Assembly (NCBI RefSeq): GCF_026151205.1
Contig: NC_087078.1
Coordinates: forward strand, 7,706,675-7,766,674
Direction: 5' to 3'
Length of the DNA stretch: 60,000 nt
Origin: Bolinopsis microptera
Taxonomy: Eukaryota > Ctenophora > Tentaculata > Lobata > Bolinopsidae
The position numbers and the translations under genes were made by a program. The notes beneath the pieces were generated by a model. The model made no database searches. It had not been told where the DNA came from and saw only the letters and a list, made by a program, of their open reading frames with translations. Shown piece by piece: positions 1,930 to 41,439 of this stretch (its first letter is position 1; each line of letters starts with the position of its first letter).

Positions 1930-1933
1930 ATCA

Positions 1934-10504: not shown

Positions 10505-11457
10505 TCAAGATGCTGCCCTCTCAGGAGTTGTCTCACCAACTACTTTGCAGCACCAGCAACAGCAGTGATAGCAGCAGCGGCCAATAAAGGTGGACTTAAC
10601 ATAATCCCTGATCTGCTTCTTTCTGATGAAGTATATTATCGGGTTGATGGTTGAATTGAAAGGAATTCCTACAAATACTGCGTACAAGCCGTACATTGAG
10701 AACATGTCGACATTTTCGTTCCCAAACCAGACTATAATAACTGTGCAGACGAGGTACGCTATATTTATATGTTTACGGTGCAGAAGCATCCTGATATGAT
10801 CAAAATAGTGATGGTGGCATGTCGGCGCGTTTTGTTGGTGTTGTCTGGGTTTCTCTTATCAGCCCGGAGTTTTATTGCACAGATTGCTGAAGATACTATT
10901 ACAATGAAAATAATCAGAGTCAGCTCCACGATCATAAATATACTTTGAGATTCTTCAGAAATCAGATTTAGATACGGCAACAAGACATTAACTAAAAACA
11001 AGAGCATCCAATGAAAAGCAGTGATTAAAGCAATCAATTTTTTCTTTATTTCGTAAAAAGGGTAAACCATACAAATTGTCCTCGTCACTGAAAGTAGACA
11101 CGTAGCGAAAGCCGTTGCTGCAACAAGAAGGTTAAACCAATTCAATAGAAAGCTGATTACCATTTGCGTTTTTTCCGTCGAACCAGGCAACATTTCCATA
11201 CTCACGGACAGGGACACTCCCCAAAACATAACAGCTGATATACAGACAAGTAAGTCTGTAGAATTCAGGAGTATCATGAGCTTGCTGGCCAAAGTTTCAC
11301 GGTCTTTGTTGAGGAAGTAGGAAAGGGAAAGAGCATTTGATATGGTTCCCCCAATTCCTTCAACAAAAGTAAGAATGATGAGCCCAAATGATATAAGTCC
11401 AAATGAATAATCTGGTTCAACGGTAGGATACTCTGATGATAGATTTGAAATCGCCAT
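10505..11457 (-). pseudogene. Class A (rhodopsin-like) GPCR, frameshifted in TM6
   Basis: The ATG at 11457 follows an acceptor-like tttttttacag, suggesting an intron in the 5' leader. Seven hydrophobic spans are visible: TM1 near residues 19-48, TM2 with LLNSTDLLVC, TM3 ending TRT where DRY is usual, TM4 with FHW, TM5, TM6 with GCFC, and TM7 with NSTINPIIYF (the NPxxY motif). The tail is cysteine-rich (RCCYHCCCWCC), a likely palmitoylation site. The frame shifts inside TM6: TAAACATA is followed by TAAATATA (10760-10775), an 8-bp duplication with one change. Without it TM6 would read on into TM7. This copy is therefore a pseudogene, a null allele or an assembly error. The ligand is unknown. 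Confidence 0.88.
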
Positions 11458-11703
11458 TATATCTCCTGTAAAAAAGAACTTTTAACAAATTTGTTAGCTC
11501 TATAAAACTGTATTTGTGAGCTTATTATTAGGAATTTAAATCTCGTTGAGGGCCATCTATACATAACGTAGTCGATTTGTCCCATTTTCAGACTCTACGT
11601 TGTATTTAAGGAACACCGTCGTCTCAAACGATAAGACTAACTCTAAGAGCAGTAGTTCAGCACTTTAAATACTTTTCTGTTATCTTAAGTAACAATCTTA
11701 ATA

Positions 11704-17618: not shown

Positions 17619-17631
17619 CTTCTTTTCTTTA

Positions 17632-17666
17632 CTGAAACAGATATTAATGAAATAATTTTTACTTAC
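17632..17666 (-). other. Probable 35-bp intron in the BTB gene leader
   Basis: On the minus strand the segment begins GTAAGT and ends ctgtttcag, just 14 bases before the BTB start codon. An exon reading through it would start at GTG, not ATG. The length is very short for an animal intron. Confidence 0.5.
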
Positions 17667-17699
17667 GTACACTGTAATCGTGTGGTATCAAAGCCTAAA

Positions 17700-21355: not shown

Positions 21356-21588
21356 TACTTATACCCAATAATATTAATTGTGTGAGAAATTTACTTTTCG
21401 CGGATTGTTTTGTTTTGAATAGTTTAAGTGTTGTTCACATATTATATAATGACTGAGGGTGAGGGATGGGGTTTCTATTTGGTTATGCCACTGTTATTTT
21501 AACACAGTGGCTATGTGTAAAACTGATTACGGGGAGGGGGTTTAAATTGGCCAAAAGGTGATTACATATATAATAATATAAGACCGCT

Positions 21589-21600
21589 AATAGTTTCAAT
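21589..21600 (+). repeat. Left target-site duplication of RTE-like LINE
   Basis: aatagtttcaat here is repeated exactly at 22605-22616, bracketing the LINE fragment. Confidence 0.85.
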
Positions 21601-22604
21601 CAAGATAATAATCAAAGCCATTATGTCCCTTTACATCAACACCAAAGCCAAGATCATGACCCCTGAAGGTACAACTCTTGAATTCCTGACCAACCTTGGA
21701 ATTCTCCAGGGCGATGTTATTGCTCCGCTTATCTTCATTATCGTCCTGGACTTCATTCTTAGACTGGCAATAGGTCCACACGATGGGCTTAAAGTAGGTT
21801 GTGATTACATAGCAGATTTGGACTTCGCCGATGACTTAGCTACAATCACACCCAGCTTCAGCGATAACAGCCGCCTCTGTCAAAGTATCTCTGATATTGC
21901 AGCCCGGTATGGTTTACTCATCAACATCGAGAAGACAAAATACATGTCCTACAACCTACCACGGCCTGTTAACTCGGATGATAGGGTCTTCATTAACAGC
22001 AACCCTCTCGAAGAAGTCCACGACTTTAAATATCTAGGATCCTACATCGCTTCAACCAGCAAAGACATCAATGTCAGGAAAGGCCTTGCATGGAAAGCAC
22101 TTGAAAGTTTAGATGTTTTCTGGAAATCTGACATGTCTAGAAAGATCAAGACTAAAATTTTCAGAACTGCAGTCGAGCCTGTTCTTTTATATGGCGCAGA
22201 AACATGGACTTTGAATAAAGCTGACACTAAAGCACTAGACGGTGTTTACACACGAATGCTACGAAGGGTCTTTGGTATCTCATGGAAATCCCACACACCT
22301 AACTCCGTCCTCTACGGAAATTACCCCTCGGTGACTGATACCATCAAAACACGAAGACTTCGTTTTGCAGGGCATGTCTACCGTCTACAGGACCAACCTG
22401 CTCAGCAACTCCTTTTCTGGCTACCATCTTACGGCAAAAGGTATCGAGGACGACCACACAAGACCTTTCCAGACGTCCTTCAAGAAGATACTGGTTTAGA
22501 GCCCCACATGATACGTCTGCTCATGAGTGATAGAGATAAATGGAGACATGCGTTGACACGAAACTCGTTCCAGATTTCATCTGGACCGACCTAGGCAGGC
22601 AGGC
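21601..22604 (+). mobile_element. 5'-truncated RTE-like LINE copy
   Basis: A 1004-bp insertion flanked by a 12-bp target-site duplication. The open frame (ATG at 21623, stop near 22592) covers the end of the RT palm and the thumb/C-terminus: LGILQGDVIAPLIFIIVLDF, the catalytic FADD, INIEKTKYM, FKYLGSYI, LLYGAETWTLNKADTKAL, RMLRRVFGISW, RLRFAGHVYR and RGRPHKTF. The YGAETW and GHV-x-R/RGRP motifs are typical of RTE-type elements in invertebrates. The endonuclease and RT fingers are missing. The 3' end is a short ggca repeat (aggcaggcaggc), as RTE elements often have in place of poly(A). The frame is intact over its whole length, so the insertion is probably young. Confidence 0.9.
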
Positions 22605-23627: not shown

Positions 23628-23650
23628 TCACTCTGTGGGCTCTGATAGAC
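23628..23650 (-). CDS. V/C locus: tentative last coding exon C4
   Basis: Minus strand: an acceptor (taatctcag) is followed by GT, completing a cysteine codon with the last T of exon C3, then six codons (LSEPTE) and TGA. The cysteine would be the final one of the sushi-like domain. The polypyrimidine tract is weak and no polyadenylation signal is evident, so another last exon is possible. Confidence 0.35.
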
Positions 23651-23829
23651 CTGAGATTAATATTTTGGCTTATTTGACCTTATAAACCATAGGAATTAAG
23701 ATATCATAAAAACATGCAGGGTAAAACATGTTTTACTCCTGCGAGAGATTCCGCCTAAGATGAAATTACAGATCTGATTTTAATAAATTCAAATTAAAAA
23801 TGTTAAATTTGTGACTATATATATATATA

Positions 23830-23879
23830 GTACACTCAAAGGAACAGATGTATATATACATCTGTTCCTTTGAGTGTAC
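23830..23879. repeat. Perfect 50-bp palindrome
   Basis: gtacactcaaaggaacagat followed by its exact reverse complement, centred on tgtatatataca. A TA-rich tract precedes it. On the present model it lies in the intron between C3 and the tentative C4. Confidence 0.95.
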
Positions 23880-23963
23880 GTACTAAATAAGGTCAATGAA
23901 CAAATCTTCATCACAGTAGCTATCAACCTTTGATTCAGACACTCCTAATTTTTATATACTTAC

Positions 23964-24105
23964 AGATCTTGTTGACGTCGTAAGTCCACTCCGAAATGCT
24001 CTTATCACAGGTTAGGTTAAAAGATAGACCGTCACCGTTAAGTATGAAGTTACTGTCTACTGCCCCCTCGTTTAAACCGTGTGTGCATGTGATCTTGCAG
24101 TACAC
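23964..24105 (-). CDS. V/C locus constant exon C3: sushi-like domain
   Basis: Minus strand exon of 142 bp: the acceptor acacacacag is followed by GTG TAC TGC, and it ends AAG ATC T before GTAAGT. Phase in 0, out 1, which fits exon C2. It encodes about 47 residues with four cysteines at YCKITCTHG, NLTCDKS and (split over the junction) the last residue. The spacing, with a glycine-rich NGDGLSF stretch and SEWTYD before the final Cys, resembles a CCP/sushi module. NLT is an N-glycosylation sequon, fitting an extracellular location. Predicted to be outside the cell, after the membrane span of C1. Confidence 0.7.
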
Positions 24106-24288
24106 CTGTGTGTGTAGGATGTTATGACGTTATGTTTGGTATAGTCATGAGATCATATAATTTGTAAATCGTTTTTCTGTATTTTGTTACATTTATTTAC
24201 TTTATGAGAAACCTCGAGTACATAATAATCCTAATTTTTCAATTTCATATTAACTAAACTAAAATAAAAGAGTTCTACTTATTCTAAC

Positions 24289-24392
24289 CTGGGTGTTTTC
24301 TCTGGATCTGATGGAATTGCACTCTGCAGTACCCTCTAGCGGTATTACACCACTAATATCACACAACCCTTTGTAATGGTCTGCTTGTAATG
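24289..24392 (-). CDS. V/C locus constant exon C2
   Basis: Minus strand exon of 104 bp: the acceptor tctattcag precedes CA TTA CAA and the donor GTTAGA follows CAG. Phase in 1, out 0, exactly joining C1 to C3. It encodes about 34 residues, LQADHYKGLCDISGVIPLEG then TAECNSIRSRENTQ, with two cysteines. It forms the stalk or first half of the cysteine-rich outer domain. No known domain is recognised from this exon alone. Confidence 0.7.
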
Positions 24393-25693
24393 CTGAATAG
24401 AACAAGGTTTTAGTTTTATCAATAATTAATTAATTAACAATTAATTAATTCAAATTCAAAAATTCACAGCGACTAATTAATAATTATTGATATCTTAAAT
24501 ATTAGAGTGGGAATTGGGCGAAGTTTTAAAGCAGACACAAAGTCATATTGTTATTTTTATACAGGTGGAGACTGATATTGTGGGGAAGTGTAGAATGGGT
24601 ACTGACAGTTGCGCCTAAATGTTTTAAACAATAAATAACTAACAGATGTGCTTTAAATTAAAGAATTCCACGAACACCTAGTACAAAAGAAGAAGTGTTT
24701 AGCCGGATATGAAATAGATAAGGAGTTTTCGTGAAATGATGACTATGAATTCAGGTCTAAGTATTGATGACATTTTAACATGATAAATCAATATGCTAGT
24801 TCAATCATTTTGTAAGTTATTTTGCTTAAGGAATTTGGTTGGCTTATACTCATAATAATATTAATAGTTGACAAAAAGTGCAATTATTTGTAAAAATGCC
24901 AGGTAGCCCTTGCCGCCTTTCGTTAGCACACAATCACAAATAGATAGAAGTGAGATTGTATTCTTAAATGTGCATGCCAGTGCGACTGCCGATTTATTCG
25001 CTGTAATATTGGTTGTTTAGTTGTAGGCGGTTGTCATCGCTAGATAATCTCTATTAACTACTGACTAGCTCCCGCCCGGCTACTAGCCGGCTACTAAATA
25101 GTTTAATCCCAGCTCAACCCGAGAAATGAGGTTCTAAACCGGCTTTATTGTTGTTCTTAAACGGCTCTTAATTGTCTTTGCAGCAGTTCCTGAGTTTCCT
25201 GACAGACTCTAATTGACCAATCAGCTATTTTGGGATCACCGAAATTATTCCACAAATTTACAATAGCCGATGGCAAAATGATTTTAGAAAAGGCTACATA
25301 TTATGTCATATGTAATATGTTGGTGCAAGTGGACTAGCGGAATATATTCGGAATATATTCGGTAAATGAGCAAGTTGTGAGACATGGGGTTATTGGGGCT
25401 GTTAGATCTTAAAAGTCGTTAAGGTAGGAGAAAATCTCAAGTATAATCAGTCGATGATGAAAAAGATTGGTTAGATCAGACACCAGAGTTAAGAATGAAA
25501 TCTGTCCGATAAACATATTGTTCAGAAAAAGGTGCCATTTTTAATCTTACCATCATCTTCTAAGAACCGAGCTGAATATTATTTTTGTCTTTTAATAAGT
25601 AATGCATATTTTACGGTTGAATATGTTTAGAGATGTCAAAAGTTTTATTATTATTATTAAGTAATTAAGTTACATGTCAATATTTTTACTTAC
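24393..25693. other. Intron C1-C2 of the V/C locus (no other exon seen)
   Basis: AT-rich with TTAATTAA-type tracts near 24420-24480. I found no further exon with good splice sites and an open frame. Confidence 0.45.
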
Positions 25694-25809
25694 TGGTTGT
25701 CCAAACTGGCTTGGTCATGGCGAAGAAGAATATCGCTAGTAAAGATATCAGAGTCACGAACACTGAAAACATCTGGCATCGCTTTTCTGTCTGAGCATCT
25801 CGCGGCACC
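25694..25809 (-). CDS. V/C locus constant exon C1: transmembrane segment
   Basis: Minus strand exon of 116 bp with acceptor aattccgcag and donor GTAAGT. It starts with one base, G, completing a codon left by a phase-2 donor, and ends with one base (phase 1), matching C2. It encodes VPRDAQTEKRCQM, then a hydrophobic span (FSVFVTLISLLAIFFFAM), then TKPVWTT. Basic residues lie before the span and none of the V exons has a signal peptide, so a type II topology (N-terminus inside) is predicted. All seven V exons end in phase 2 on the same strand, and each would form a sense codon with this G (GTG, AGG, CGG, ATG or CAG). Confidence 0.75.
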
Positions 25810-26778
25810 CTGCGGAATTAATTAATTAAAATTAAATCATTGAATTTAAATAATTAAATAGATTTGATAAATTGAAGTGATTAATTAATTGTGTGATGGA
25901 CGGAGGTGGAAGTTGTTGGCAAGTCAATGTTATTGGTGAGACGAATTCAGAGACAAAACATAATTACCTAAATTCCCATAAAAAAGATGACATGAAAAAT
26001 GTGAATTCGCTAAAAATTGTTAATTCGGAACCCGGAATTAGCGTATTAATTATTTTTAATGTTCGAACATCATTCAAGCACTTCGACTGAAGTCTGAAGA
26101 AATTGTTGTCTTCGTTAGTATTGCAGGTTTCTTAACCTTCATGAGGTTTTTTAAAACTGCTGGCCTGATCCCCTATTTTTGCATTGTGCAGTTACCTGGG
26201 GGATTTACTGTGACTGTTCGGGTTTCTGTCCCACCTACTGGGCCTTCCCGGTATCTTATTTTTAGCACGCACGGTAATTACAACTGGGACCGGGACTACT
26301 AATCCGGGATTATGGTCGATCCTGGAGTTGAAAAATGCCATCTCTCAACTCCTGGTGCCAATAATTGTTCTGGATGCTCCGCAAACTTACTAGTTTAAAA
26401 ACAAAGAGGAACGATAAACTACGAAATGATGCATTAGCTGTAATGTTGAAGCTCCTTCATAAAATCACAAATCCACGCTAATGACAAACCTTTTGTCCCT
26501 AATCAATGGTATTATGTGAATCTGATTAAGATTTAATCTTAACCGTTTCACTGATTTGCTGGACGGAGACCTTGACAGATCATCTTTTTTAATTTTGGCT
26601 TCACGATCTCCTTTGCACAATTCACATATCGCAACTATCGCAAGTATAGCCTCACAACGAATTATTAAAGTACGGCGTTCAAATATTTCAATTATTTAAT
26701 TAAATACATTGTTAAATACATTGTTAAATACATTGTTTCACAATCCTCTTGACGTGACTTAACTCAGGGTATTAAGTA
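25810..26778. other. Intron sequence upstream of C1
   Basis: AT-rich. A GTG-start open frame at 25893-26090 (plus strand) has no recognised domain and is probably chance. Confidence 0.45.
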
Positions 26779-28043
26779 CCTTAATTCCCAAAAATTTGGG
26801 CGACAAAAAATTTGAGCGGGCCTCTCGCCCAAATTTTTTGCAGACCAAATTAATTGCATAAATCTTTTCCGTCAGCTAAATTTTTTGCTAACCAAACTTT
26901 TGGCATTTGGCCTGTGGCCCTGAAATCTATAGAAAGATGGCTTTTTCTTCATATCCAAGTGAAATAATATTTGAAATTTTAGTTTTCTAATCTGTCATTC
27001 ATGGCTTGACCAAGTAAAAAGGCTTATATTTTAAATGAATAGAAATAACTGGAATAACTAACAGCTACTAATAAAACAATTATGGCTAGAGGTACGGATA
27101 GCTAGAGATTTAAACAAGATCTGCAAATGGATTATCATCCACCGTAAAGTCTGATCTACAAGCATCAGTTATACCCGACTTCTCAAAGCCTTTCCTTATG
27201 TCATCTGGCCTCCCTTTTAAATATACAAAAAGTTCGTTGATCCAACGAGCGTGTACTTCACGGATCACTGTCAAGCGGGTATCAATTTTCACATTGTCTG
27301 ATGAAACTCCTCCATTGAGCTGACACACTATGTTTTTCGCGTACCAATCTTCGTACTTATTGCGCATGAATTTCTTAGCCAGTCCATTGATAGATATGTC
27401 CAGGAGCTGTAGATGATGGGTCATATTAGCTGGAACTTTCTGTAGGATGCAGTTGTTCTGTCATCAGATCTTTTAGTGTCTGTGTGTGTTGGGCCCGAAA
27501 CACATCTGATATCAGTAGCGCTTTCTGCTCAGGGTTGTTGATGGAGGCTCGAACTGATTCTATGCGAGGAAAAAGGATTTTCTCAAAGAACTGGACACTG
27601 GTCAAACCTTTCGACCATCTGGTGAGGCGTCATAATGATAATTGTATGTGAAAGGGGTATGATAAGATATGCTGAGTGTAAGTAGACTAAACTATCTGAT
27701 TGAGAGACTGAATATCACTATTGTATATCTATCATTTTGTACTGTGCCATCATCACTGTATTTTTTAGTAGTTACTGGGCAGATCGTAAATTTCATAATG
27801 TGAAACAACTCAGACTACCACCTACATGCTTAAAATTGAAAGCAAAATGACTGGAATAATAAGAATAATAATGAACTAAGGCAAATATCTAACTGAAATT
27901 TTAGTAAAAAAATCGTTCATTTTTCGAAGAATTTGTGCCCAAATTTTCGGTCGCCCAAATGAGTTCAAATTTTCTGCCCAAATTTTTCGGGCTCAAATAA
28001 ATTGTGCTCAATATAATGGCACACAAATTTTTGGGAACTAAGG
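26779..28043 (-). mobile_element. Pogo/Tigger-like DNA transposon relic
   Basis: The 1265-bp element starts ccttaattcccaaaaatttg and ends with its near-exact inverse (one mismatch in 20). It is flanked by TA on both sides (26777-26778 and 28044-28045), the target site of Tc1/mariner-pogo elements. Inside the ends are several further gcccaaattttt-type inverted motifs. On the minus strand a decayed DDE-type transposase is visible: LLISDVFRAQHTQTLKDLM (about 27520-27465) holds the second catalytic Asp. After a one-base frameshift follows THHLQLLDISINGLAKKFMR and EVHARWINELFVYLK to 27110. The N-terminal DNA-binding part is missing, so it cannot transpose by itself. Confidence 0.85.
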
Positions 28044-28409
28044 TATATGATACAAAAAATAACACAGTTCATCCCATCAAAAATAGTTTATGTTAAGAAT
28101 CAACAAAGCTAGCTCGATGTTGTGAAGATTACCCACGCCTGAACGTTGCAACCACTTTGACCACCCGGTACCTCTCCACCCCTTGTCATGACAAGTGCAA
28201 TGTATAATGTACAATGTATAATTTAAGAAAGGAGTAGGTGGCAGACAAAAGTAAACCGATCAACATCTACATCTAATTTTATATCTGCCCTTATTTATCA
28301 TTTTAGTATCGTGATCACCTCGTTTTGAGATTGATATGGGATAACAATGATTGGCAATCATAAAATCGTTGTCGTTCGGAGTAAAGATATGATTATCGTA
28401 AACTGCGTG

Positions 28410-28620
28410 GTACTGTGTTACACTGTGTGACACTGTGTGCGACACTGTGTGCGACACTGTGTGCGACACTGTGTGCGACACTGTGTGCGACACTGTGTGC
28501 GACACTATGTGTGACACTGTGTGTGACACTATGTGTGACACCATGTGTTACACTGTGTGACACTGTGTGCGACACTGTGTGCGACACTGTGTGTGACACT
28601 ATGTGTGACACTGTGTGTGA
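28410..28620. repeat. 12-bp minisatellite
   Basis: About 17 copies of gacactgtgtgc with variants (gacactatgtgt). Since 12 is a multiple of three, long HTVS-like frames appear on both strands; these are repeat artefacts. Confidence 0.95.
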
Positions 28621-30015
28621 TATATCGTTTACTTGGCACATCAAGACTGGATACTGATTAGTTTGTGTTTCTATTACTATCATAATATTATTAAATTGAA
28701 CTGTTTAAAAATGTAGGCAGTATCCAAGAAACCCGATTAATGATGGTTATCGTAACTAAAGGTGTCTAACCCTTGATTGTATGGGTTCTAAAATAACGTC
28801 AGACTCTAATTATGTGTTCAGGAGCTACCTCCGTAACATCGGAACAGGAATATAAATATTTTGAGTAATCGCGTAAGGATTTGATAAGTTGACGTCTGTG
28901 GTTTTATAGACTAGCTACACCGTTGCGTCAAATTAAATTCATATACTGTTCTGTATTCATTGTTGAATTCAAACAATCATATGCATGTTCATTTTGTGCA
29001 TGTCAATTTTGTACACGTGAAATTTGTGAGTAGATTATTGTATTAAATTTAAATCAATCATACAAATAAATTTCGAATGATCTTACGGTATAGCCGTTTC
29101 AGACATCTTTTACTACCCTTTCGACAGAAAAAATAGATTGAAAGTCTAAAGCTAGGCAAAGGACAAGTTGAACAAGTTATAATCACATTTACTATAAAAA
29201 AGGAATAATAAATAAATAAAATAAATTGATAAATAATTGGCAGATAGAGATAAAAGAAACAGAAATATCAACTTTTAAGACTGCGACAAACTTTGTCTGC
29301 CTCGTTCCTGGCAGTCAATTAAACATCGACAAAAGAACAGACATTCTTTAGTCTCACAATATGACTTAATTGCTGTGATGTTTGATGTTCTGGGTCGTTT
29401 ATATGAAACCCAATATCAAATCCAGCGTGTTATCAGTATCCGAGTACACCCTTCTTTGGGGTAGTAACATGTTTTCAGGAGTCATGATCGTAATGTGCAT
29501 TTCCTACTTGTAATATTGACTGTCATCATGTATTATTACTTGTTGATGGATGACAGGAAAGCTCACTCAAAGTGATCATAATGAGTGAACGCCGAAATTC
29601 TGCTTTCAACCATTGACCAACGAATTAGATTCGACAGAATTTCTAACCAGGATGTTTGTGACCGCATGGTTGCGTGTGTGTACTGTCGTCAGGACTGAGA
29701 ACACAGAGGGGATCTCAAAAGGGAGCCTTATGAAAATGATCTTAAAATTGTTTAAAATCGTCGCATGGCTACTACTAAACCGACGAATTTGACCTGGAGA
29801 AGCTAGAATATATAGTAAGCCTACCAGTCAACTTTTTAAATGAAAGCAAACTCTTATAATGGTTATGGTGGAGCTGAGGTGGACAAGAAGGAACCAAACC
29901 TGGGACTTACTGTGCCATACTCTCACAGGACCATAGTTGAATTTATAATTGGGTTCAGTTAAAGATTGTGTTTGATAGATGGCTGTGAGCTGCAGTCAGT
30001 AGCACGTACACTATA
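28621..30015. other. No gene seen
   Basis: AT-rich sequence within what would be the long V-to-C1 intron. I found no exon with good splice sites. Confidence 0.45.
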
Positions 30016-31181
30016 CAGTACACTTACATACCAGTAGTACATACTACACTTACATACCAGTAGTACATACTTCACTTACATACCATTAGTACATATACTA
30101 CACTTACATACCAGTAGTACATACTACACTTACATACCAGTAGTACATACTACACTTACATACCAGTAGTACATATACTACACTTACATACCAGTAGTAC
30201 ATATACTACACTTACATACCAGTAGTACATACTACACTTACATACCAGTAGAACATACAACACTTACATACCAGTAGTACATACTACACTTACATACCAG
30301 TAGTACATATACTACACTTACATACCAGTAGAACATACTACACTTACATACCAGTAGTACATACTACACTTACATACCAGTAGTACATACTACACTTACA
30401 TACCAGTAGTACATACTACACTTACATACCAGTAGTACATATACTACACTTACATACCAGTAGTACATATACTACACTTACATACCAGTAGTACATACTA
30501 CACTTACATACCAGTAGTACATACTACACTTACATACCAGTAGTACATATACTACACTTACATACCAGTAGTACATATACTACACTTACATACCAGTAGT
30601 ACATACTACACTTACATACCAGTAGAACATACTACACTTACATACCAGTAGTACATACTACACTTACATACCAGTAGTACATATACTACACTTATATACC
30701 AGTAGAACATACTACACTTACATACCAGTAGTACATACTACACTTACATACCAGTAGTACATACTACACTTACATACCAGTAGTACATACTACACTTACA
30801 TACCAGTAGTACATACTACACTTACATACCAGTAGTACATACTACACTTACATACCAGTAGAACATACTACTACTTACATACTACACTTACATACCAGTA
30901 GAACATACTACACTTACATACCAGTAGTACATACTACACTTACATACCAGTAGTACATACTACACTTACATACCAGTAGTACATACTACACTTACATACC
31001 AGTAGTACATACTACACTTACATACCAGTAGTACATATACTACACTTACATACCAGTAGAACATACTACACTTACATACCAGTAGTACATACTACACTTA
31101 CATACCAGTAGTACATACTACACTTACATACCAGTAGTACATACTACACTTACATACCAGTAGTACATATACTACACTTAC
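30016..31181. repeat. 26/28-bp minisatellite abutting the V7 donor
   Basis: About 44 copies of a 26-bp unit (tacatactacacttacatac + cagtag) with a 28-bp variant (tacatatac). Read on the minus strand, every unit contains TATGTAAGTGTA, a close match to the 5' splice-site consensus. The first copy is the actual donor of exon V7 (GTAAGT at 31181-31176). The V7 intron thus begins with a long run of donor-like sites. Confidence 0.95.
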
Positions 31182-31468
31182 ACATGAACGAAGTGTTCCC
31201 TGTAACCCCTGGTATCGTAGATCCGCATCAAGTCCCTATGTCGGTTATACCTGTTTTCTTGACTCCTCTTCATCACAAATAGTGCTCTTTCCTCCTTGTT
31301 CATTCCCTCCATCTTGCTTATGTCCGGGTCTACTACTTTCTTTCTGTTCGATCTTGGAGAACCTGGGTCGGAGTTGAACATTCGAGCTCCGAATTGAACA
31401 ATTGATGTCCTTCTTTCTCTGTTTTGAGTACGGGTTCCGAGAACAGGATGCGTTTTTAAGAGAGCCAT
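31182..31468 (-). CDS. V/C locus variable first exon V7
   Basis: ATG at 31468; 95 codons plus 2 bases, then GTAAGT (phase 2). The product is basic and hydrophilic (MALLKTHPVLGTRTQNRERR at the start) with no signal peptide. The end carries the family motif: ENRYNRHRDLMRIYDTRGY, then REHFVH. No splice acceptor is evident near the ATG, so this looks like a true first exon with its own promoter. It is the V exon nearest the constant exons. Its intron opens directly into the 26-bp minisatellite. Function unknown; predicted to be a cytoplasmic tail. Confidence 0.75.
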
Positions 31469-31858
31469 GGCGAAAAGTTTAGTATGACTTATAACAATAA
31501 CAAATTAAAATATCAAATTAAGGCAAACATTTCATCAAAAAGTCAGTAGACTGATCTAATGCTAATTGGCGAGCATGTTGTATATTATATTTGTTTATAG
31601 ATAAAGATTGGATGCGGTTACAATAACAACTGGAAATAGTGTATCAAGATTGGGTCACTAATGACCAGAAGGTAAACACGTCATAACCATGTCATAACTT
31701 TAGCATAGCACAAAGAGAATCTTGTTGAGATAGGGCACTGCTGTCTACTCTAGGCGACTACAGAGGCGACGTCCTCTGAAGCGTATCATCTGTCGTGAAC
31801 TTGGAGAACTGGGTCATCTTTCAAATTGTGACATTGCGTTTCAAGTGCCAGGTGTTAT

Positions 31859-32083
31859 CCAAAGGTGGTATCAAAAGATGTTATCTTAAGGTGTTATCTA
31901 AAGATGTTCTCTAAAGATGTTCTCTAAAGATGTTCTCTAAAGATGTTATCTAAAGATGTTATCTGAAGATGTTATCTAAAGATGTTATCTAAACATGTTG
32001 TCTAAACATGTTCTCTAAAGATGTTCTCTAAACATGTTATCTAAAAGTGTTATCTAAAGGTGTTGTCTAAAAAAGATGTTATC
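31859..32083. repeat. 13-bp minisatellite
   Basis: About 17 degenerate copies of ctaaagatgttat/ct. Lies between V7 and V6. Confidence 0.9.
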
Positions 32084-32782
32084 ACACTCACAGTGGAGGA
32101 GTCTGAAATTATTATCACGTGTTATAATCACTATTGTTGAGCTATTTGATGAATCATATTTATAACTTACTGTATTGATAAGTTGATAGTAAATCGAAAA
32201 GTCATAATTAAGGAAAATCCGTGAAAAATAATATGGGGAAAATAACGATGGTGGTCTAAATTTTGGTAGTCCGAAAATGTGGTGTTTTTTCGAAAAACCA
32301 CCGACTTTCGTACCATTTAAATATGTCTCGTAAGGTAGGTATGGGTTTAAAGTACAAACACTACGGTGTACATTCTACATGTGAACATAATTATAAGTTT
32401 ATAAGAGGAAGATACGACGATTAAAATCAGAAATATGTTTCAAATTTCAGAGCTACCTCTAACTTCTTTATGTGAAAATATTTAAATTAAATCTTCGAAA
32501 GAAGGGTCTTGGAAAGGTCATGTAAGGTTTCATGGTTCAGTTATCAGTACCTATATATTATGTAAGACAGCTATTCATATAGTTTGCTTTAAAACCGTTA
32601 AAGGTAATATAATATGATATGAACATTATGTATGTTGTGATGTTTCTGATAAATTTCTGATAATTCCGTAAATGCGACAAAAGAAAGGTGCTCTTTACAG
32701 GAAAAGGAAACAGTTCAACGTTAAATGTGACTACTTCATATTCATGTTATAAAAGGATTTTAATCAATTGATGGTAACTCAC
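32084..32782. other. V6-V7 interval, no further exon seen
   Basis: AT-rich. I looked for a V6-specific downstream exon encoding a membrane span and did not see one, which favours sharing of C1. Confidence 0.4.
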
Positions 32783-32964
32783 ATTCTGCCGTGCATGTAA
32801 CCCTGGTTGTAACCATGGATACCCCAGTTAACACTCTGTATCCTATGTTTCTCGTAACGTTTCTCCTGAGCAATCCTCTTAGCTCGATCATGGAGAGTCC
32901 GCTCGATCTGCTCTTCCAAACTTTTCTTAAGCAGGGGCTCAACTTTTACCGTAAATGGCCCCAT
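32783..32964 (-). CDS. V/C locus variable first exon V6 (short)
   Basis: ATG at 32964; 60 codons plus 2 bases, then GTGAGT (phase 2). It is the shortest member. It reads MGPFTVKVEPLLKKSLEEQI, then ERTLHDRAKRIAQEKRYEKH, then RIQSVNWGIHGYN. The EKRYEKHR...GIHGY core aligns with EARYNRHR...ELHGY of V3. The tail ends YMHGR with a split Met codon at the junction. Hydrophilic, with no signal peptide. It lacks the longer N-terminal region of the other members. Confidence 0.72.
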
Positions 32965-32999
32965 TATAGTGTTTGTCTATAGTGTTTTCAGCACATCAG

Positions 33000-34110
33000 C
33001 TGATCATTCAGGAATTCGTGGTAGTTGTCGGTTAAAATTACTAACAAGCAAACAATGTAGAGCCAGGATATGTTGTTGCCAAATGCAAGCGTACAAGGAT
33101 GTGAGTCAGGCTTCAACAAATTTGACTAAGGAGCTACCGAGCTTAATTTCACGATCTTACTGAATCTCTGAATCGCAGAGCTGAGATTAACGTATCAAAC
33201 ATAATGGCTGACCGGCAATTCACAATTATGCAACCTGAGATTGCATATTATGATGTTTTTAGTGCACGTGGTTTGAAGTCATCATCCAGCTACTCTTTGA
33301 TATTCTGTACTCGTGATCAGCGGTCGTTGGACTGATCCTTGCTCGTGATGACTCGCCGTCTGTTTTGTCTGTAAATGTTTTGTGGCCCGGGTCTGGTTTC
33401 ATCAGACCCTACTGGTGGGGTTATGATATTAGAATACTTTTTAGTTTCTCTTTAGTAAGAATACCTTACAGAATAATTATCTTTAGTTAGGGTAGGTTAT
33501 CTTATTTCAGGGTAGCATCTATTTAGGGTAAAGACATGTGCATAAAATTGTAGGTATATTTCCTTTAATTATATCTGCTGCTAATTCGGGTTTGAGTTAC
33601 TGACACTCTCGAACGAACTCAATGTGATGTTAGTTATTAATTATTCAATTGTTAAATTGGGCCCAAGAAGCAAACATCAAACATGGGAAGATTAAGTTGA
33701 AATAGTAATTTTGGGTTATCATTACTATTTAATTCTTTCAACCACTTATCATTATGCCTTTACTATTTTACTGTTTTTGAATTATTGTTAGGTTAATTAC
33801 CAAGAAATATTTATTATTTATTATGATAATGAGGATCATCAAACAGATGCTTTGCACAATTGAAGGGGATCAAACTGTATAGGACGATGAAGAGAATGAA
33901 GCAGAAGACTTGAGATTCTACAGGTATTATTATATTACAAACTTAATTTTTTTCATTAAAAATCTAATAGATTAATCATCTCGAAGTAGATGTATGTGAC
34001 GAAACTCTAAATTTGAACTAACTTTGAACTGGGAAAAATATCGAAATTATCAGTTATATAAGGGTGTGAAGAGCTGCGTTTAAGTTGAAGAGGGGTTAAT
34101 CGTGACTCAC
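33000..34110. other. V5-V6 interval, no further exon seen
   Basis: AT-rich sequence with no recognised gene or repeat array. Confidence 0.4.
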
Positions 34111-34376
34111 CTATCTTCAGTCATATCATGATATCCAGACAGGTCATGTTGTCGCCACAACGTCCTGTGTCTGTTAAACCTTTTCTCGTTTGCTTCAGCG
34201 ATATTCTGCTTTTTTTGCAAAGCCGACACTTCCAACTTCACCTTTCGTTTCATACTCGTAGTTTTTGCGTTAACGTAGGTTTCTGGTTTGCTGGTTTTAC
34301 TGCTCTTTCGGAAATCTTTAAAATGGTTAGACCGCAGTGAAGCTCTGTTTCCTCCCATTCTGTATGCATCGATCAT
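34111..34376 (-). CDS. V/C locus variable first exon V5
   Basis: The ATG at 34376 (MIDAYRMGGNRASLRS) aligns with the V4 start (MIKAWGRGAAKASQRS), which fixes the start in both. It has 88 codons plus 2 bases, then GTGAGT (phase 2). The middle is lysine-rich (SMKRKVKLEVSALQKKQN) and the end has the family motif EKRFNRHRTLWRQHDLSGYH, then DMTED. No signal peptide. It shares with V4 a 32-bp upstream box at the same distance from the ATG. V4 and V5 look like the product of a recent exon duplication. Confidence 0.78.
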
Positions 34377-34390
34377 TCTGGATACGACTA

Positions 34391-34422
34391 CAATACGATT
34401 CAACGACTGCTACGACGGCGAT
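34391..34422 (-). promoter_or_regulatory. Conserved 32-bp upstream box of V5
   Basis: Starts 15 bases upstream of the V5 ATG and matches the V4 box (35659-35690) at 25 of 32 positions, with 11 consecutive identities (actgctacgac on the plus strand). It could be a shared promoter or leader element, or only residual homology from the duplication. Confidence 0.45.
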
Positions 34423-34429
34423 GAACAAC

Positions 34430-35354
34430 CTTATGACACTTTTGTCGATCCTATTGGATTGTTGATACAGATGGTTCAAAGTCCAGCGGAAGGGAGATCT
34501 TTATAATTATATCGTTAAACTGTTGCAACAACAACAAAAAGGAAAATTACGATAAAATTGTATTTTTTGGTGTCCATTACTATTTACTATTCGTTCAGCC
34601 ACTTAACACCAAGCCTATTCCATTAGCAAATCAATAATAGATTAATTGTTGATGATTGTGATATCTGATCAAATTATATTTAATAGATACAAATTATATT
34701 TAGTATATTCGTGACGTTGTTTTTACTAGACTCGAATATATCTTTTTTTTTGTATGGTTTTAAGGTCGAATCGTGTAATTTTAATTTTGAGAGATTTCTT
34801 AGCGTTATCAATTTACAGTAATGGGACACATCAGTTTAAGACTGATTAGTGCATTTTTGTTTGATAAGTAGTGCTAGTCATATCACTGCTTATCAGCTTT
34901 ACTAAAGAATGTTCATAATTACTTACATGCTACGAATTTTGACTGATTAAATTTTGCCTGCCAATTTTTACGTTTGAGTTGATAAACTATGATGATTATA
35001 TATGAATTTTACTTGATAGAGTGCTTATCTTAAAGTTAAATGTTTTTACAGGCTCTAATGATGTAGTTTTACGAAGATTTCAAGCCTTACGTTGTGTGTT
35101 TCCCTTTGTGTCCAAAAGCATTATAACTTTAATTTCGTTTATTTTAAAATATGCTTGTTGCGCGATCAAATGGAATACATTTTATTAGGACGAAGGATAG
35201 AATGAAGTGGAATCTCTTAATTCTATAAACTAATCAAATTAAATTAAATCAAACACCTAAGATTGGGTTAAACTTCAAATTTACAACAATATCAACACGT
35301 GTAAGACTTTGCTGCACTGCGTTTAAATTAGCGTGATCCAGAATATAGACTAAC
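34430..35354. other. V4-V5 interval, no further exon seen
   Basis: AT-rich sequence without an exon-like segment. It is under 1 kb, too short to hide much of a separate gene. Confidence 0.45.
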
Positions 35355-35644
35355 CTGTGAGTTTCTTGGCCACCATCATACCCCTTCAGATCATACTTCC
35401 GACACACGATCCTGTGTTTGTTGTACCGATTCTCATTTCCTCGAGCCACTATCAGTTTCTTCTTAACGACTGCAGCCTGGACCTTCCCCTCCTCTGCTAC
35501 TGCCAATGTTATCTTTCGTATCTTGCTCGTTAATACTGGTTTTTTGTGGTGATGGTGATGACCGGTTAGCGTTTCTGTGCGGTTCCGGGAACTTTCCGAC
35601 CTTTGTGAAGCCTTCGCTGCCCCTCTGCCCCAAGCTTTGATCAT
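35355..35644 (-). CDS. V/C locus variable first exon V4
   Basis: ATG at 35644; 96 codons plus 2 bases, then GTTAGT (phase 2). The frame stays open upstream to 35674, but without an ATG. N-terminus MIKAWGRGAAKASQRSESSR, a run of five histidines (GHHHHHKK), a basic middle (KKPVLTSKIRKITLAV), and the family motif ENRYNKHRIVCRKYDLKGYD near the end. No signal peptide, so it is predicted to be cytoplasmic. Closest relative in the array is V5. Confidence 0.78.
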
Positions 35645-35658
35645 GTTTGATGTAACCA

Positions 35659-35690
35659 AAATACAATGCGACAACTGCTACGACAGTGAT
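35659..35690 (-). promoter_or_regulatory. Conserved 32-bp upstream box of V4
   Basis: Counterpart of the box at 34391-34422, at the same 15-base offset from the ATG. Confidence 0.45.
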
Positions 35691-36077
35691 ATACTATGTA
35701 ACTTGCGTTTATCCTCTGGGATTGTTGATGCAGGAGTACCGGTGTCCGCAGAGATGGAGCAAGTAATGTTTGTTTAAAAAGCTCTGATTATATGAGTGAA
35801 ATTTACTGAACTTGTTATGTACATATTTTAAATGCACCTGTTAAACGTCAGAACTCAGAAGCTGATTTGCTTAACACTGCATCAGCTGATCGCGAATATT
35901 CGTTTTGAAGATATTGCTATATCTGAGTATCTATCTTGCGAAGGCCTTCCTAAATTTCACCCAAAATCGTATTTCCTGTACAAGAGTTATATTATACCAT
36001 CTACTGTATTATATACGTATGTACTGTTTTATATGCATGTATTGAAAGGTTACGTCAACAAAAAACTAACATTGTTG

Positions 36078-36142
36078 TGGCTACCACTGGTTACCACTGG
36101 TTACCACTGGTTTCCACTGGTCACCACTGGTCACCACTGGTT
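36078..36142. repeat. 10-bp minisatellite next to the V3 donor
   Basis: About six copies of ctaccactgg/ttaccactgg/tcaccactgg begin within 10 bases of the V3 splice donor, inside the intron. On the minus strand the unit reads GGTNACCAGT, so each copy offers GGTAACC- or GGTGACC-type weak donor-like sequence. Confidence 0.9.
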
Positions 36143-36152
36143 AGTCACTAAC

Positions 36153-36502
36153 CTCCGCTTAGCCTCGTGATAGCCGTGTAGTTCGTAGCGGTCCCAAAGT
36201 CTCCTGTGCCTATTGTACCTTGCTTCTTGGGCCCTAGTATAAGCTGATGTGTTGGAGGAAGCAGAACTTCTGGCAGAATGAGAAACAGTTGTAGAACTTT
36301 GCCGTGAAATGGGGTTGGATTTATAACCACTGTAACTGTTGGTATTGGAGATATGTTCGTCTACATAGTCGAAGAAGCAGTCGAATCCAGTCTGTGGTGG
36401 TGCACATCCTGAGGCTAGAGAATTTCTACGCTGGTTTTGGATAGCGCCCAGGATGCCTGGCAAAGGAACCTTTGAAGGTCGGTCATAGTAGAAACTGGAC
36501 AT
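36153..36502 (-). CDS. V/C locus variable first exon V3
   Basis: ATG at 36502; 116 codons plus 2 bases, then GTTAGT (phase 2). The N-terminus carries PLPGILGAIQNQ, which V2 shares as SLPGILGFIQNQ, followed by a PP-x-TG...FFDY segment, also shared in form. The middle is serine-rich and low in complexity. The family motif is clearest here: EARYNRHRRLWDRYELHGYH. No signal peptide. V2 and V3 form a second related pair in the array. Confidence 0.8.
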
Positions 36503-36753
36503 TCCAAATCAATGAGGGTTGTGTTTTGGTGTGGTGATTAACGGTTATTCAGGCAGACAGTATCAATACACAACTTCGTAACATAAACAAGTAGCACAAC
36601 ATGATAGATATAATATTATTGGTAAAATGTTGAGCAAATAAATATAAAACAAATGTACCGTGTTAAATTGGTGGCAGCAGGTTACTTAAAAGCGGTAATA
36701 TTACATTTACACGTATCAAATACAACAAAATTTGACAAATTTTAGTAACAGAA

Positions 36754-37991
36754 AGCCTGGATTTAAGGCTGGAGAGCAAAGTGAACTAATGAGATGTCTG
36801 GATTAGAGCCTGGAGAGCAAAGTGAACTATTGAGATGTCTGGATTAGAGCCTGGAGAGCAAAGTGAACTAATGAGATGCATGGATTAGAGTCTGGAGAGC
36901 AAAGTGAACTATTGAGATGTCTGGATTAGAGCCTGGAGAGCAAAGTGAACTAATGAGATGTCTGGATTAGAGCCTGGAGAGCAAAGTGAACTAATGAGAT
37001 GTCTGGATTAGAGCCTGGAGAGCAAAGTGAACTAATGAGATGTCTGGATTAGAGCCTGGAGAGCAAAGTGAACTATTGAGATGTCTGTATTAGAGCCTGG
37101 AGAGCAAAGTGAACTAATGAGATGTCTGTATTAGAGCCTGGAGAGCAAAGTGAACTAATGAGATGTCTGGATTAGAGCCTGGAGAGCAAAGTGAACTATT
37201 GAGATGTCTTGATTAGAGCCTGGAGAGCAAAGTGAACTATTGAGATGTCTGTATTAGAGCCTGGAGAGCAAAGTGAACTAATGAGATGTCTGTATTAGAG
37301 CCTGGAGAGCAAAGTGAACTAATGAAATGTCTGGATTAGAGCCTGGAGAGCAAAGTGAACTATTAAGATGTCTGGATTAGAGCCTGGAGAGCAAAGTGAA
37401 CTATTGAGATGTCTGTATTAGAGCCTGGAGAGCAAAGTGAACTAATGAGATGTCTGTATTAGAGCCTGGAGAGCAAAGTGAACTAATGAAATGTCTGGAT
37501 TAGAGCCTGGAGAGCAAAGTGAACTAATGAGATGTCTGGATTAGAGCCTGGAGAGCAAAGTGAACTATTGAGATGTCTTGATTAGAGCCTGGAGAGCAAA
37601 GTGAACTATTGAGATGTCTGTATTAGAGCCTGGAGAGCAAAGTGAACTAATGAGATGTCTGTATTAGAGCCTGGAGAGCAAAGTGAACTAATGAAATGTC
37701 TGGATTAGAGCCTGGAGAGCAAAGTGAACTAATGAGATGTCTGGATTAGAGCCTGGAGAGCAAAGTGAACTAATGAGATGTCTGGATTAGAGCCTGGAGA
37801 GCAAAATGAACTAATGAGATGTCCTGATTAGAGCCTGGAGAGCAAAGTGAACTAATGAGATGTCTGGATTAGAGCCTGGAGAGCAAAGTGAACTAATGAG
37901 ATGTCTGGATTAGAGCCTGGAGAGCAAAGTGAACTAATGAGATGTCTGGATTAGAGCCTGGAGAGCAAAGTGAACTAATGAGATGTCTGGA
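36754..37991. repeat. 41-bp satellite, about 30 units
   Basis: Unit: tctggattagagcctggaga + gcaaagtgaactaatgagatg. Diagnostic variants (gtcttgatt at 37203 and 37572; aatgaaatg at 37321 and 37690) recur exactly 369 bp apart, giving a nine-unit higher-order period in part of the array. Lies between V3 and V2. Non-coding. Confidence 0.97.
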
Positions 37992-38573
37992 CAAGCAAGC
38001 TAACATACTAGTCGTTAAACATATCCATCAGGAGAGGTCGTTGGACAATGAAGGATACAAAATTCTCAGGTTATTCTTAAAGATATCTCTAACAAAAGAT
38101 ATCAGACTCGGTGTAGATTAAAAAACCTCTGATCATGATCAGTAGTTTTCAACCTCAGTATTATTTGCTTCAGTCGCAATAATAAAGTATCATGATTCAG
38201 TACAATGCCACCAATAATAATATACAGATAAGATACATTTTATATTTGCAAGACAGCATAGTTTGTTGTTGTTTGCCCGGTAGCCTTGAAAATTGAAAGC
38301 ATTCGGCGCAATGATGTAAGGCTATAGTACAAAATATGTAATATATCATATAATTCATAATCACTAGAGAATACTCAAAGTTAAAATCTTTATTATAGAG
38401 TTTCTTTGTCGTGGTAATTTAAAAGTGAATATGAAAATTGAAACTAAGCATTAGATACACACATGCAAGCAATGGTATTCGGTATGCTTGTTTCTTTTAA
38501 TCAAATCGTTAAAACTATCAACGTGCGTCGTGCATAGCTTATTTACACTATTACTCATGAGACATAATTGCAG
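37992..38573. other. No gene seen
   Basis: AT-rich sequence between the 41-bp array and the candidate plus-strand exon. Confidence 0.45.
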
Positions 38574-38666
38574 AAGAATGTTGATATGGAGTATCTCATT
38601 CAGCTTAATTGCTTCAGTATGGACAAGAGTAGCTGTCAAATTCTAATAACACTCTTCTCAAATGGG
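38574..38666 (+). CDS. Candidate plus-strand exon (uncertain)
   Basis: Acceptor ataattgcag, 31 open codons (KNVDMEYLIQLNCFSMDKSS, then CQILITLFSNG) and donor GTGAGT; 93 bp, phase 0 both ends. The product is not recognised. It is opposite in orientation to the V exons around it. Could be chance. Confidence 0.25.
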
Positions 38667-38984
38667 GTGAGTGAAACTGCAGAAGTAAAAAAAGGCAGTC
38701 AAAGGCATTTTGCTAGTCTGGGAATGGAACTTTTTTTAAATAATACCAAAATAATCTCTAGATTGCATGGATAAGCTTACATGGATAAGATTAATGGACT
38801 TTTGAGTGTGTGCACGAAGAGCGAGACAGTATGTACATTGTACATGTTTTATCAGGATTCCAAAATACAGAATACTCAAAGATCCTCTGCTGTGGATCCC
38901 TCATCATGTCAAAATGTTGATGGGAAAGCTAAAGAGAACTGGCCAACCGGTGTCACTAAGAATACACTATGTAGAAACCTTAAA

Positions 38985-39225
38985 GGTTTTCGACGGGGTA
39001 CGGACTCGTCGACATGTTTGGGACTGATTTTTGGTAATCAGACGTCGTGGGACAAATTAGGGTAAGGTTTTGGCCTGGGTTTTGACTTTGGGTTACGTTT
39101 AGGGTTGGTTATAAGATTTTTTCCCACCCAAACCCAAACCCTAATATTTTGCACCGACAAATCCCACGCCGTCCAGTCTCACACCCACGAGTCTCAAGGT
39201 CCCAGGGTCCGGGACTCGGACCCCT
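38985..39225. repeat. Imperfect foldback (MITE-like) element
   Basis: The left half (gtcgtgggacaaattagggt and cggactcg) is roughly complementary to the right half (accctaatattttg, aaatcccacg and actcggacccc). No clear target-site duplication. TTAGGG-like motifs here belong to this repeat. Confidence 0.35.
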
Positions 39226-39296
39226 ATGATTTTCATTGATTTCGTTTATTAACGTTTACGATCAACAATTTTCTAGTGTTATAAGCGATAACTCAC

Positions 39297-39670
39297 CGTA
39301 GTGGGACCTCAGCCAACCCGTAGCCTTCTTGAATCTTGCTCGCTTTCCTGTGTGCATCATACCGCCCGTCTTGAAGCCTGATCTGTTCCTTCCTAGTTCT
39401 AACATGATCATTCACCACTGTCTCACCATCAGCATCTCCCGAAGGTCGATAAGACTCGAAGATATCCTCTGAACTCTCTGATCTGACTGCTGATGGGTCT
39501 GTTATTTTGAACTCTTCAGAAGACTCGTAGAATGCAGCGAAGCTCCCTCCGGTTGGAGGGTTAAACCTGTGCTCTTCTTGGTCGGTACCCATCTGGTTCT
39601 GAATGAAACCCAATATACCGGGTAACGAGGCTTGCTGGTTGAATTGTACGTAACCAGACATACTGGACAT
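39297..39670 (-). CDS. V/C locus variable first exon V2
   Basis: ATG at 39670; 124 codons plus 2 bases, then GTGAGT (phase 2). N-terminus MSSMSGYVQFNQQASLPGIL, continuing GFIQNQ, shared with V3. A PPTGGSFAAFYESSEE segment is followed by acidic, serine-rich sequence. The family motif is weaker: DGRYDAHRKASKIQEGYGL. No signal peptide, so it is predicted to be cytoplasmic. The last split codon would be CGG (Arg) if joined to C1. Confidence 0.75.
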
Positions 39671-39679
39671 GCTTTAGAG

Positions 39680-40901
39680 ATCCCTTTTAATCGGCCCTGA
39701 TTTCTCCTCAACGGTTCGCTGACATCCCTCAAACACAAATCTTATGAATGTATGTAGTTATATCGTGAAACTATGAAAGGTTTGCTAACACTATGCAATA
39801 CATATTACAACTATTCAGTACCGAACAAAGCAACACAACACAATACAGCGAACAGAGATAAAGATTAGCGCTACATCGTGAATGGGGGTGTATCATACCG
39901 CCTAATTGATGTCCTATTTCGAGGTGGTATTATTATCCACAAATGCAGTCTAACTCTAATGTGAGTAGCGATTCTACAGATATTCATGATTAAATGATAT
40001 AGGTGTCGGTATCACTCTCAATATTATATTTCGATTAAGAATTGGATCATATCGATGATACCTTCAGACTGATCGACTGGATTCGTGAGATCACTAACAG
40101 TGATGAATTATACACTCGAGGATTTTAGAAACACGTTTAATAGTATTAAGATTTGGGTCAGATGCTTCCGATTGTTGAAAGTATTCAAGAAGCATGAACA
40201 ATGACTTAATTTAATATAAGAGTTCCGCGGAAATTCCTCGAGGTTTTACACACGGAATTCCGCAAGGAAATCCACAATGGAACTTTTTCCGTAAAAACTA
40301 CGCGGGTGGGCCGTACCTAATTAGGTTCTTGTCGGTATGAAAACTTAGATCTCGTAAGACCGAGCGTTAGTTTTTAACATAGTAGTGTTTAGGCTTTCGA
40401 CAGAAAAGAAAAGTTAACGAAGTTAAGTAAACCAAGGCTTATAACTGGTTAAAATATATGAAAATAATCGACGTTTCGGCACTCATTGGCCTTTTACTAA
40501 GATATTCTTAAATATGGCATAAAAACTAGAATTTCAATTTTATGTCATTTAGTAAGTAACTTCTTGATAATATGATGATTCAAACGTCGTAGAGCTAGAT
40601 GATGTGAAATTTGGCAAACGGAAATGCAACAAATTTGGATATCGTATATATTCCTTTATACATCCATGTAAATTTCCAGTTTCATATTGTTCTTCCTAAT
40701 TATATAATGCGTAAATGCTGACAATAACGCCTTGGAAATTGTTATAATTTGTTCGAAAGAAAATGTGTAAGATGTCCAGATCTCTACTTTATAAATTGGA
40801 TTACAGAACGTCTTCAAAAATCATGATTTTAGATTATACACTACATGCTCTGACCTCTTTAGATCCGCGAAAAGCACACAGTATTGGGCACCTGTAGGCT
40901 G
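39680..40901. other. V1-V2 interval, no further exon seen
   Basis: AT-rich sequence. No exon encoding a membrane span was recognised after V1. Confidence 0.4.
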
Positions 40902-40945
40902 TACCACGGTATTACCACGGTATTACCACGGTTTTACCACGGTAT
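40902..40945. repeat. 11-bp minisatellite in the V1 intron
   Basis: Four copies of taccacggtat, about 105 bp beyond the V1 donor. Confidence 0.9.
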
Positions 40946-41050
40946 TAGATAATAATGCAGCCAGTGAATGTGATGGTACACAGTTAACTTTGAGTGATAT
41001 TTTTTATTTAATTGATATAGTATGCTACTATGTTTGTAAATTCGACTTAC

Positions 41051-41439
41051 TGTTGTTCGTTGATAGCTTTATTCAGTTCCTCCTCGAAGTTCTCCATGTG
41101 CTTATTGTACTTATCCTCAAAGAAGTCTTCGACATCTCCAAAGAATCCAGAACTGGAAGAAGAACTGGAAGATGATGACGATGAGGACGATGAGGAAGAT
41201 GAAGACGATGAACCTCCGTTGTTTTTCTTCTCCAACTTCCTGGCCTCTTTCTCCATTTTCTTGGCCTCCTTCTTGACTCTCTTGGCCTCCTTCTTGGCTC
41301 TCTTCTTCTCAGTTTTTGGACTGACTCTGAGTGGAACGTACATTTCCACATCCTCCTGACCAGAGGGTCCAGCGAACGATTCATCGTCAACATTGACTAG
41401 AGCCATACTGGGTAGTGCGGACCTCCTTTCTAGTTCCAT
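41051..41439 (-). CDS. V/C locus variable first exon V1 (divergent)
   Basis: ATG at 41439; 129 codons plus 2 bases, then GTAAGT (phase 2). The N-terminus is mildly acidic (VDDESFAGPSGQEDVEMYV). Next comes a lysine-rich, probably coiled-coil or helical block (KTEKKRAKKEAKRVKKEAKK), then 21 serines, then GFFGDVEDFFEDKYNKHMEN and FEEELNKAINEQ. The EDKYNKH core aligns with the ENRYNKH/EARYNRH core of the other V exons, but the DLxGY part is absent. It is the most distant and outermost member. The shared exon design (ATG start, same phase, same strand) is the main reason to include it. Confidence 0.68.

Follow-up and report, generated by a model that had tools for sequence, protein, structure and literature searches.

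We describe a locus of the comb jelly Bolinopsis microptera that is probably a single ctenophore gene with tandem alternative first exons, in which each mRNA carries one of seven variable exons (V1 to V7) on a constant type II membrane module (exons C1 to C4). The locus lies within a stretch of 60,000 nucleotides (C7:7706675-7766674 of an assembly of 264,652,675 bases in 232 contigs), which we refer to as the window. The reading is carried by the matched phases of the seven exons, by three homologous sequences in which a variable tail is joined to the constant module, by the single occurrence of that module in the genome, and by the kinship of the variable exons with one another.

Exon architecture and joined forms

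The seven V exons lie on the minus strand, 5' of the single constant module (Table 1). As the initial annotation of this DNA had proposed, each of the seven begins with ATG and ends at a GTAAGT, GTGAGT or GTTAGT donor that leaves two bases of a split codon (phase 2), exons C1, C2 and C3 chain without a stop, and every V-C1 junction codon is a sense codon (Q, R, R, R, R, M and V, in order from V1 to V7). To this chain we add a fourth piece, C4, with a TGA stop, and an overlooked microexon, C1b, between C1 and C2, which keeps the frame. The computed translation is open across all seven joins, and the open reading frame (ORF) around each V exon begins at most 12 codons 5' of its ATG. An in-frame stop stands right at the exon border in five of the seven (V1, V2, V5, V6 and V7, those with GTAAGT or GTGAGT), so that an unspliced message would yield a free tail.

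Protein searches returned 14 distinct proteins (P0001 to P0014), three of which show a variable tail on the constant module. P0001, from a public contig of 1,274 bases (source label 'lgn', which we take to be Logan), has the V1 tail, C1, C1b, C2, C3 and C4 joined, confirms the microexon, and is identical to the window at 147 of 150 residues; the V1-C1 intron that it implies is 15,241 nucleotides long and contains V2 to V7, all of them skipped. P0004, from a contig of 1,024 bases from JGI, combines a V1-type tail with this module, and P0002, a gene model of Mnemiopsis leidyi, has a V4-type tail on it. A constant exon set common to several V exons is thus seen for the V1 and V4 types, the latter only as the gene model of another species. 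Microexon C1b, present in P0001, has a counterpart in P0004 (both V1-type) and is absent from P0002 (V4-type); its inclusion is possibly coupled to the choice of V exon, a pattern drawn from three sequences only. The remaining 11 homologues (P0003, P0005, which matches C3, and P0006 to P0014) consist of an exon only or of apparent read-through of a splice site, and carry no splicing evidence; P0003 appears to run through the V3 donor and is therefore not a spliced form.

The constant module was found only once. Searched against the whole genome, it gave three matches, exon by exon, all at this locus, and no joined copy (retrocopy) was found in this genome, so that a retrocopy here is not the source of P0001. 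We found no convincing second C1, C2 or C3 between positions 26000 and 60000 of the window (best E 0.37), which bears out the earlier observation that no copy of a membrane-span exon lies between the V exons. These results bear directly on the alternative in which every V exon is part of a separate gene and has downstream exons of its own, the common phase reflecting only coincidence or shared descent. Five V exons for which no junction was found leave that alternative some room, but no private downstream exons were found between the V exons, the genome search gave one constant module, P0001 joins V1 to C1, and the V exons are paralogous (see below); we regard it as very improbable.

Table 1. 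Features of the variable first-exon locus, in window coordinates
Feature	Position	Strand	Description	Basis
V1 variable first exon	41051..41439	-	129 codons + 2 bases; poly-Ser; donor GTAAGT	P0001 joined to C1; relative P0004 joined to module; P0008, P0009 exon only
V2 variable first exon	39297..39670	-	124 codons + 2 bases; donor GTGAGT	Relatives P0010, P0011, P0013, P0014; spliced form not found
V3 variable first exon	36153..36502	-	116 codons + 2 bases; donor GTTAGT	Relative P0003
V4 variable first exon	35355..35644	-	96 codons + 2 bases; donor GTTAGT	Mnemiopsis model P0002, a V4 relative on the constant module; P0006, P0007 exon only
V5 variable first exon	34111..34376	-	88 codons + 2 bases; donor GTGAGT; closest to V4	
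V6 variable first exon	32783..32964	-	60 codons + 2 bases; donor GTGAGT	
V7 variable first exon	31182..31468	-	95 codons + 2 bases; donor GTAAGT	Relative P0012; spliced form not found
C1 first constant exon	25694..25809	-	Juxtamembrane VPRDAQTEKRCQMF and single membrane span; phase 2 in, 1 out	
C1b microexon	25551..25571	-	21 nt, in frame, phase 1-1, adds 7 residues	In P0001
C2 constant exon	24289..24392	-	Cys-rich outer domain begins; phase 1-0	
C3 constant exon	23964..24105	-	Remainder of Cys-rich outer domain; phase 0-1	
C4 final coding piece	23628..23650	-	TGA stop	
V4 upstream block common with V5	35660..35733	-	Leader or promoter-proximal	
V5 upstream block common with V4	34392..34470	-		Local alignment
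26-bp minisatellite	30019..31182	-	From the V7 donor onward; units repeat the donor-like TATGTAAGTG	

Kinship of the variable exons and the predicted protein

We evaluated the relatedness of the V exons with profiles built from the V2 to V7 tails, one omitted per run and V1 in no training set, searched against 1,990 stop-to-stop ORFs of the window (best nine rows considered per run). Omitted V3, V4, V5 and V7 were recovered at E values of 2e-10 to 3.6e-9 and omitted V6 at 1.1e-4; the highest non-V row in any run reached 6.1 bits. Pairwise full-length alignments were scored against 500 shuffles: none of the shuffles reached the score of V2-V3 or of eight pairs among V3 to V7, three reached that of V5-V6, and one that of V6-V7, and beyond V3 the likeness of V2 is weak (best with V7, 1/500). 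All seven V exons also contain the motif [KR][YF]xxH, with 15 to 20 residues between its H and the exon end; the motif was chosen after viewing the alignment, and its placement arises in 23 to 240 of 20,000 shuffles depending on the exon (23 for V1). It is likewise found in all 12 homologues tested (P0002 to P0004 and P0006 to P0014). Taken as a set the V exons form a tandem array of related first exons, with V1 and V2 as its weakest members, and they appear to be paralogues that arose by duplication.

Each of the 13 homologues scored against V1 to V7 (P0001 to P0004 and P0006 to P0014) had one clearly best V exon: V1 for P0001, P0004, P0008 and P0009; V2 for P0010, P0011, P0013 and P0014; V3 for P0003; V4 for P0002, P0006 and P0007; and V7 for P0012. 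Four of them (P0003, P0010, P0011 and P0012) share 91-96% identity with the window where they align, and may come from this species or from a sister species. For V1, V2 and V4 there are relatives that have clearly diverged, and to judge from these comparisons the three appear to retain recognisable separate identities in such relatives.

The encoded protein is likely a type II membrane protein with exchangeable cytoplasmic tails of 60-129 residues, a reading made by eye from one span, the lack of an evident signal peptide and the Cys pattern; the cytoplasmic N-terminus, single span and small Cys-rich outer part given in the initial annotation fit the sequence in this way. The outer domain comprises about 80-90 residues, and its six Cys are invariant across an alignment of four sequences; by eye, a sushi (CCP) domain was considered as a candidate for it. 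In P0004 and P0002 alike, constraint is strongest in the span exon C1 (identical at 38/38 and 36/38 residues, respectively), ahead of the outer domain (48/85 and 48/79) and of the tails (49/63 for V1 with P0004; 49/94 for V4 with P0002), a pattern that suggests an unchanging membrane partner and tails that may differ.

In the working that we propose, a single V exon would form the 5' coding exon of each mRNA and its phase-2 donor would be spliced to the sole C1 acceptor, V exons further 3' being skipped, as seen for V1 in P0001 and as would be expected for the rest. The tail would present [KR][YF]xxH at an almost constant spacing from the membrane, followed by the nearly invariant span, which may dock to a constant membrane partner, and by a stalk with the optional seven-residue insert of C1b. 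Tail choice could then set localisation, trafficking or signalling by cell type; this role is proposed by analogy with the tails of DPP6 and DPP10 in Kv4 complexes (discussed below).

Which variable exons are used, and how one is chosen

Several observations weigh against a gene in which all seven tails are used in this way. Among P0001 to P0014 there is no junction to C1 for V2, V3, V5, V6 or V7, so that the earlier proposal that each V exon splices to C1 stands for V1 (P0001, with its relative P0004) and, through the relative P0002, for V4, and is without such backing for the other five. The relatives of V2, V3 and V7 stop near or just past the donor, as expected of unspliced sequence; no homologue among the 13 scored has V5 or V6 as its best V exon. 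For P0002, an annotated gene model, transcript support is not stated, nor is the type of library from which P0001 and P0004 come. As to kinship, omitted V2 was not among the best nine rows of its run, nor was V1 under the profile of the other six, and V1 is weakly related to the other V exons throughout (its best partner, V3, is matched by 1/500 shuffles). Queries with the V exons matched the whole genome at this locus only, plus one match on C9 at E 3.05; the reach of this search is limited, V6 recovering only itself and V7 only itself and V4, so that V-like exons that are distant in sequence may have escaped it at other loci. We identified no promoter. Finally, the outer domain reaches no Pfam cut-off and has no convincing match among solved structures, for which reason an auxiliary-subunit or receptor role is one that we infer.

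In a second reading only certain V exons (V1, V4 and perhaps others) are in use, the rest being decaying duplicates or untranslated ORFs: joined forms are of the V1 and V4 types only, no homologue is assigned to V5 or V6, and the V7 donor leads directly into a minisatellite. Against such decay, every one of the seven frames is open and ends at a phase-2 donor, and the tail motif is kept in all seven and in relatives of V2, V3 and V7 from other records; we consider partial use unlikely. The minisatellite at V7 accounts for 44 (the V7 donor included) of the 49 GTAAGT sequences on the minus strand between V1 and C1. The V3 donor, too, is followed by a short repeat of ACCAGTGGTG type, and a 41-bp tandem array of about 30 copies (36757-37991) begins 255 bases 5' of the V3 ATG.

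The 5' ends of the V exons could be set in more than one way. Upstream of V4 and V5 we found a likeness over 74-79 bases (local score of 50, compared with a shuffle mean of 20.9, and reached by none of 100 shuffles); for the other 20 pairs of upstream regions, 4 to 99 per 100 shuffles reach the score. Seven separate promoters, as the initial annotation proposed, need not be the source of such ends: spliced leaders are added to many ctenophore mRNAs (PMC8527503, excerpt), and V 5' ends could be defined without them. The same alternative-first-exon gene might accordingly be served by trans-splicing of a leader onto a long precursor RNA, or a few of them. In favour of this, at least 56% of Hormiphora Iso-Seq reads carry leaders and the Mnemiopsis genome has 491 occurrences of the leader motif (PMC8527503, excerpt), and in the present genome the leader-plus-GT pattern occurs, with at most two mismatches, at 254 places (146+108), compared with 124 (67+57) in a reversed control. 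Exact copies of the pattern number four genome-wide, all at C13:12.81-12.89 Mb. This route would, however, require a usable acceptor before each V exon, to which the donors of upstream V exons could splice too, and the skipping of V2 to V7 in P0001 speaks against this; moreover, the three matches to AATTTGAG in the window (26809, 46711 and 56922) are all on the plus strand and none falls within the V array (31182-41439). On balance we hold leader-defined 5' ends to be possible, if doubtful. The four exact copies all fall within a cluster of spliced-leader-like ACAAATTAATTTGAGGT sites (G000:C13:12796643-12894453).

Elsewhere in the window we noted a LINE-like element whose endonuclease and reverse transcriptase occupy two overlapping frames (1883-5262), an additional reverse transcriptase piece (21527-22594), a minus-strand ORF with BTB and BACK domains by Pfam (15672-17687), and a 32-bp tandem array of about 91 copies (49338-52251) that is G+C-rich relative to the remaining window. 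Minus-strand ORFs at 10505-11481 resemble a multi-span receptor by eye; for 10765-11481 there was no Pfam match up to E 0.01.

Comparison with known systems

The initial annotation held that no locus of this form had been described, which does not stand with respect to the variable inner tail. In DPP6 and DPP10, auxiliary subunits of Kv4, alternative first exons vary the cytoplasmic N-terminus while the transmembrane and extracellular core stays the same, with five DPP6 and four DPP10 variants that are functionally distinct and differently expressed (PMC3973911, excerpt). The likeness lies in the type II form, predicted here, and in N-termini encoded by first exons before a common span, an arrangement found here in P0001, P0002 and P0004. 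DPP6 and DPP10 have a globular ectodomain and a 25-exon core, whereas here the outer part has 80-90 residues, six of them Cys, and the seven V exons form a tandem array with a common motif. The outer domain has no Pfam match of its own, shows no dipeptidyl-peptidase-like ectodomain, and was not linked to DPP6 or DPP10 by Pfam or PDB-sequence search.

The tandem arrangement has its own counterparts. The protocadherin, UGT1 and GCNT2 clusters have tandem variable first exons, each spliced to one constant set, and the UGT1, Gcnt2 and Ugt2a layouts are termed vertebrate-specific in the excerpted text (PMC1885805). The present locus resembles the first three in that tandem related first exons feed one constant exon set, and differs from UGT1 and GCNT2 in that the variable exon there encodes an outer or catalytic part and here an inner tail; it also stands in a ctenophore, unlike the layouts termed vertebrate-specific. 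In clustered protocadherins, too, the variable exon encodes the outer part. Membership of that family was considered and rejected, since the Pfam matches obtained with the seven queries include no cadherin family. Plectin also has many alternative first exons varying the N-terminus of one protein (a dozen, giving differing short N-terminal domains; PMC8468861, excerpt), but it is a cytoskeletal linker, whereas here the predicted product is a single-span membrane protein.

The locus thus unites, in a ctenophore, the tandem related array of protocadherin, UGT1 and GCNT2 with the inward variable tail of DPP6 and DPP10. No paper describing it was found by title or abstract opening in the part of the open-licence literature that was covered. 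More speculatively, ctenophores might have independently evolved a protocadherin-like choice of first exon, in which a cell would pick one of seven cytoplasmic tails, possibly through chromatin loops or the choice of spliced leader, and so carry its cell-type identity on the membrane's inner side; we hold this only tentatively. Thousands of chromatin loops are reported in ctenophores, and no sequence-defined insulated domains were found (PMC12221973, excerpt).

Should every one of the seven tails be in use, a comb jelly would have a tandem variable and constant gene of a kind known in vertebrates, with its variable part turned inward (PMC1885805, excerpt). The locus would then offer a compact test case for first-exon choice in a lineage where chromatin loops, and no sequence-defined insulated domains, were found (PMC12221973, excerpt), and one for the function of a membrane span that barely varies while its tails can be exchanged.

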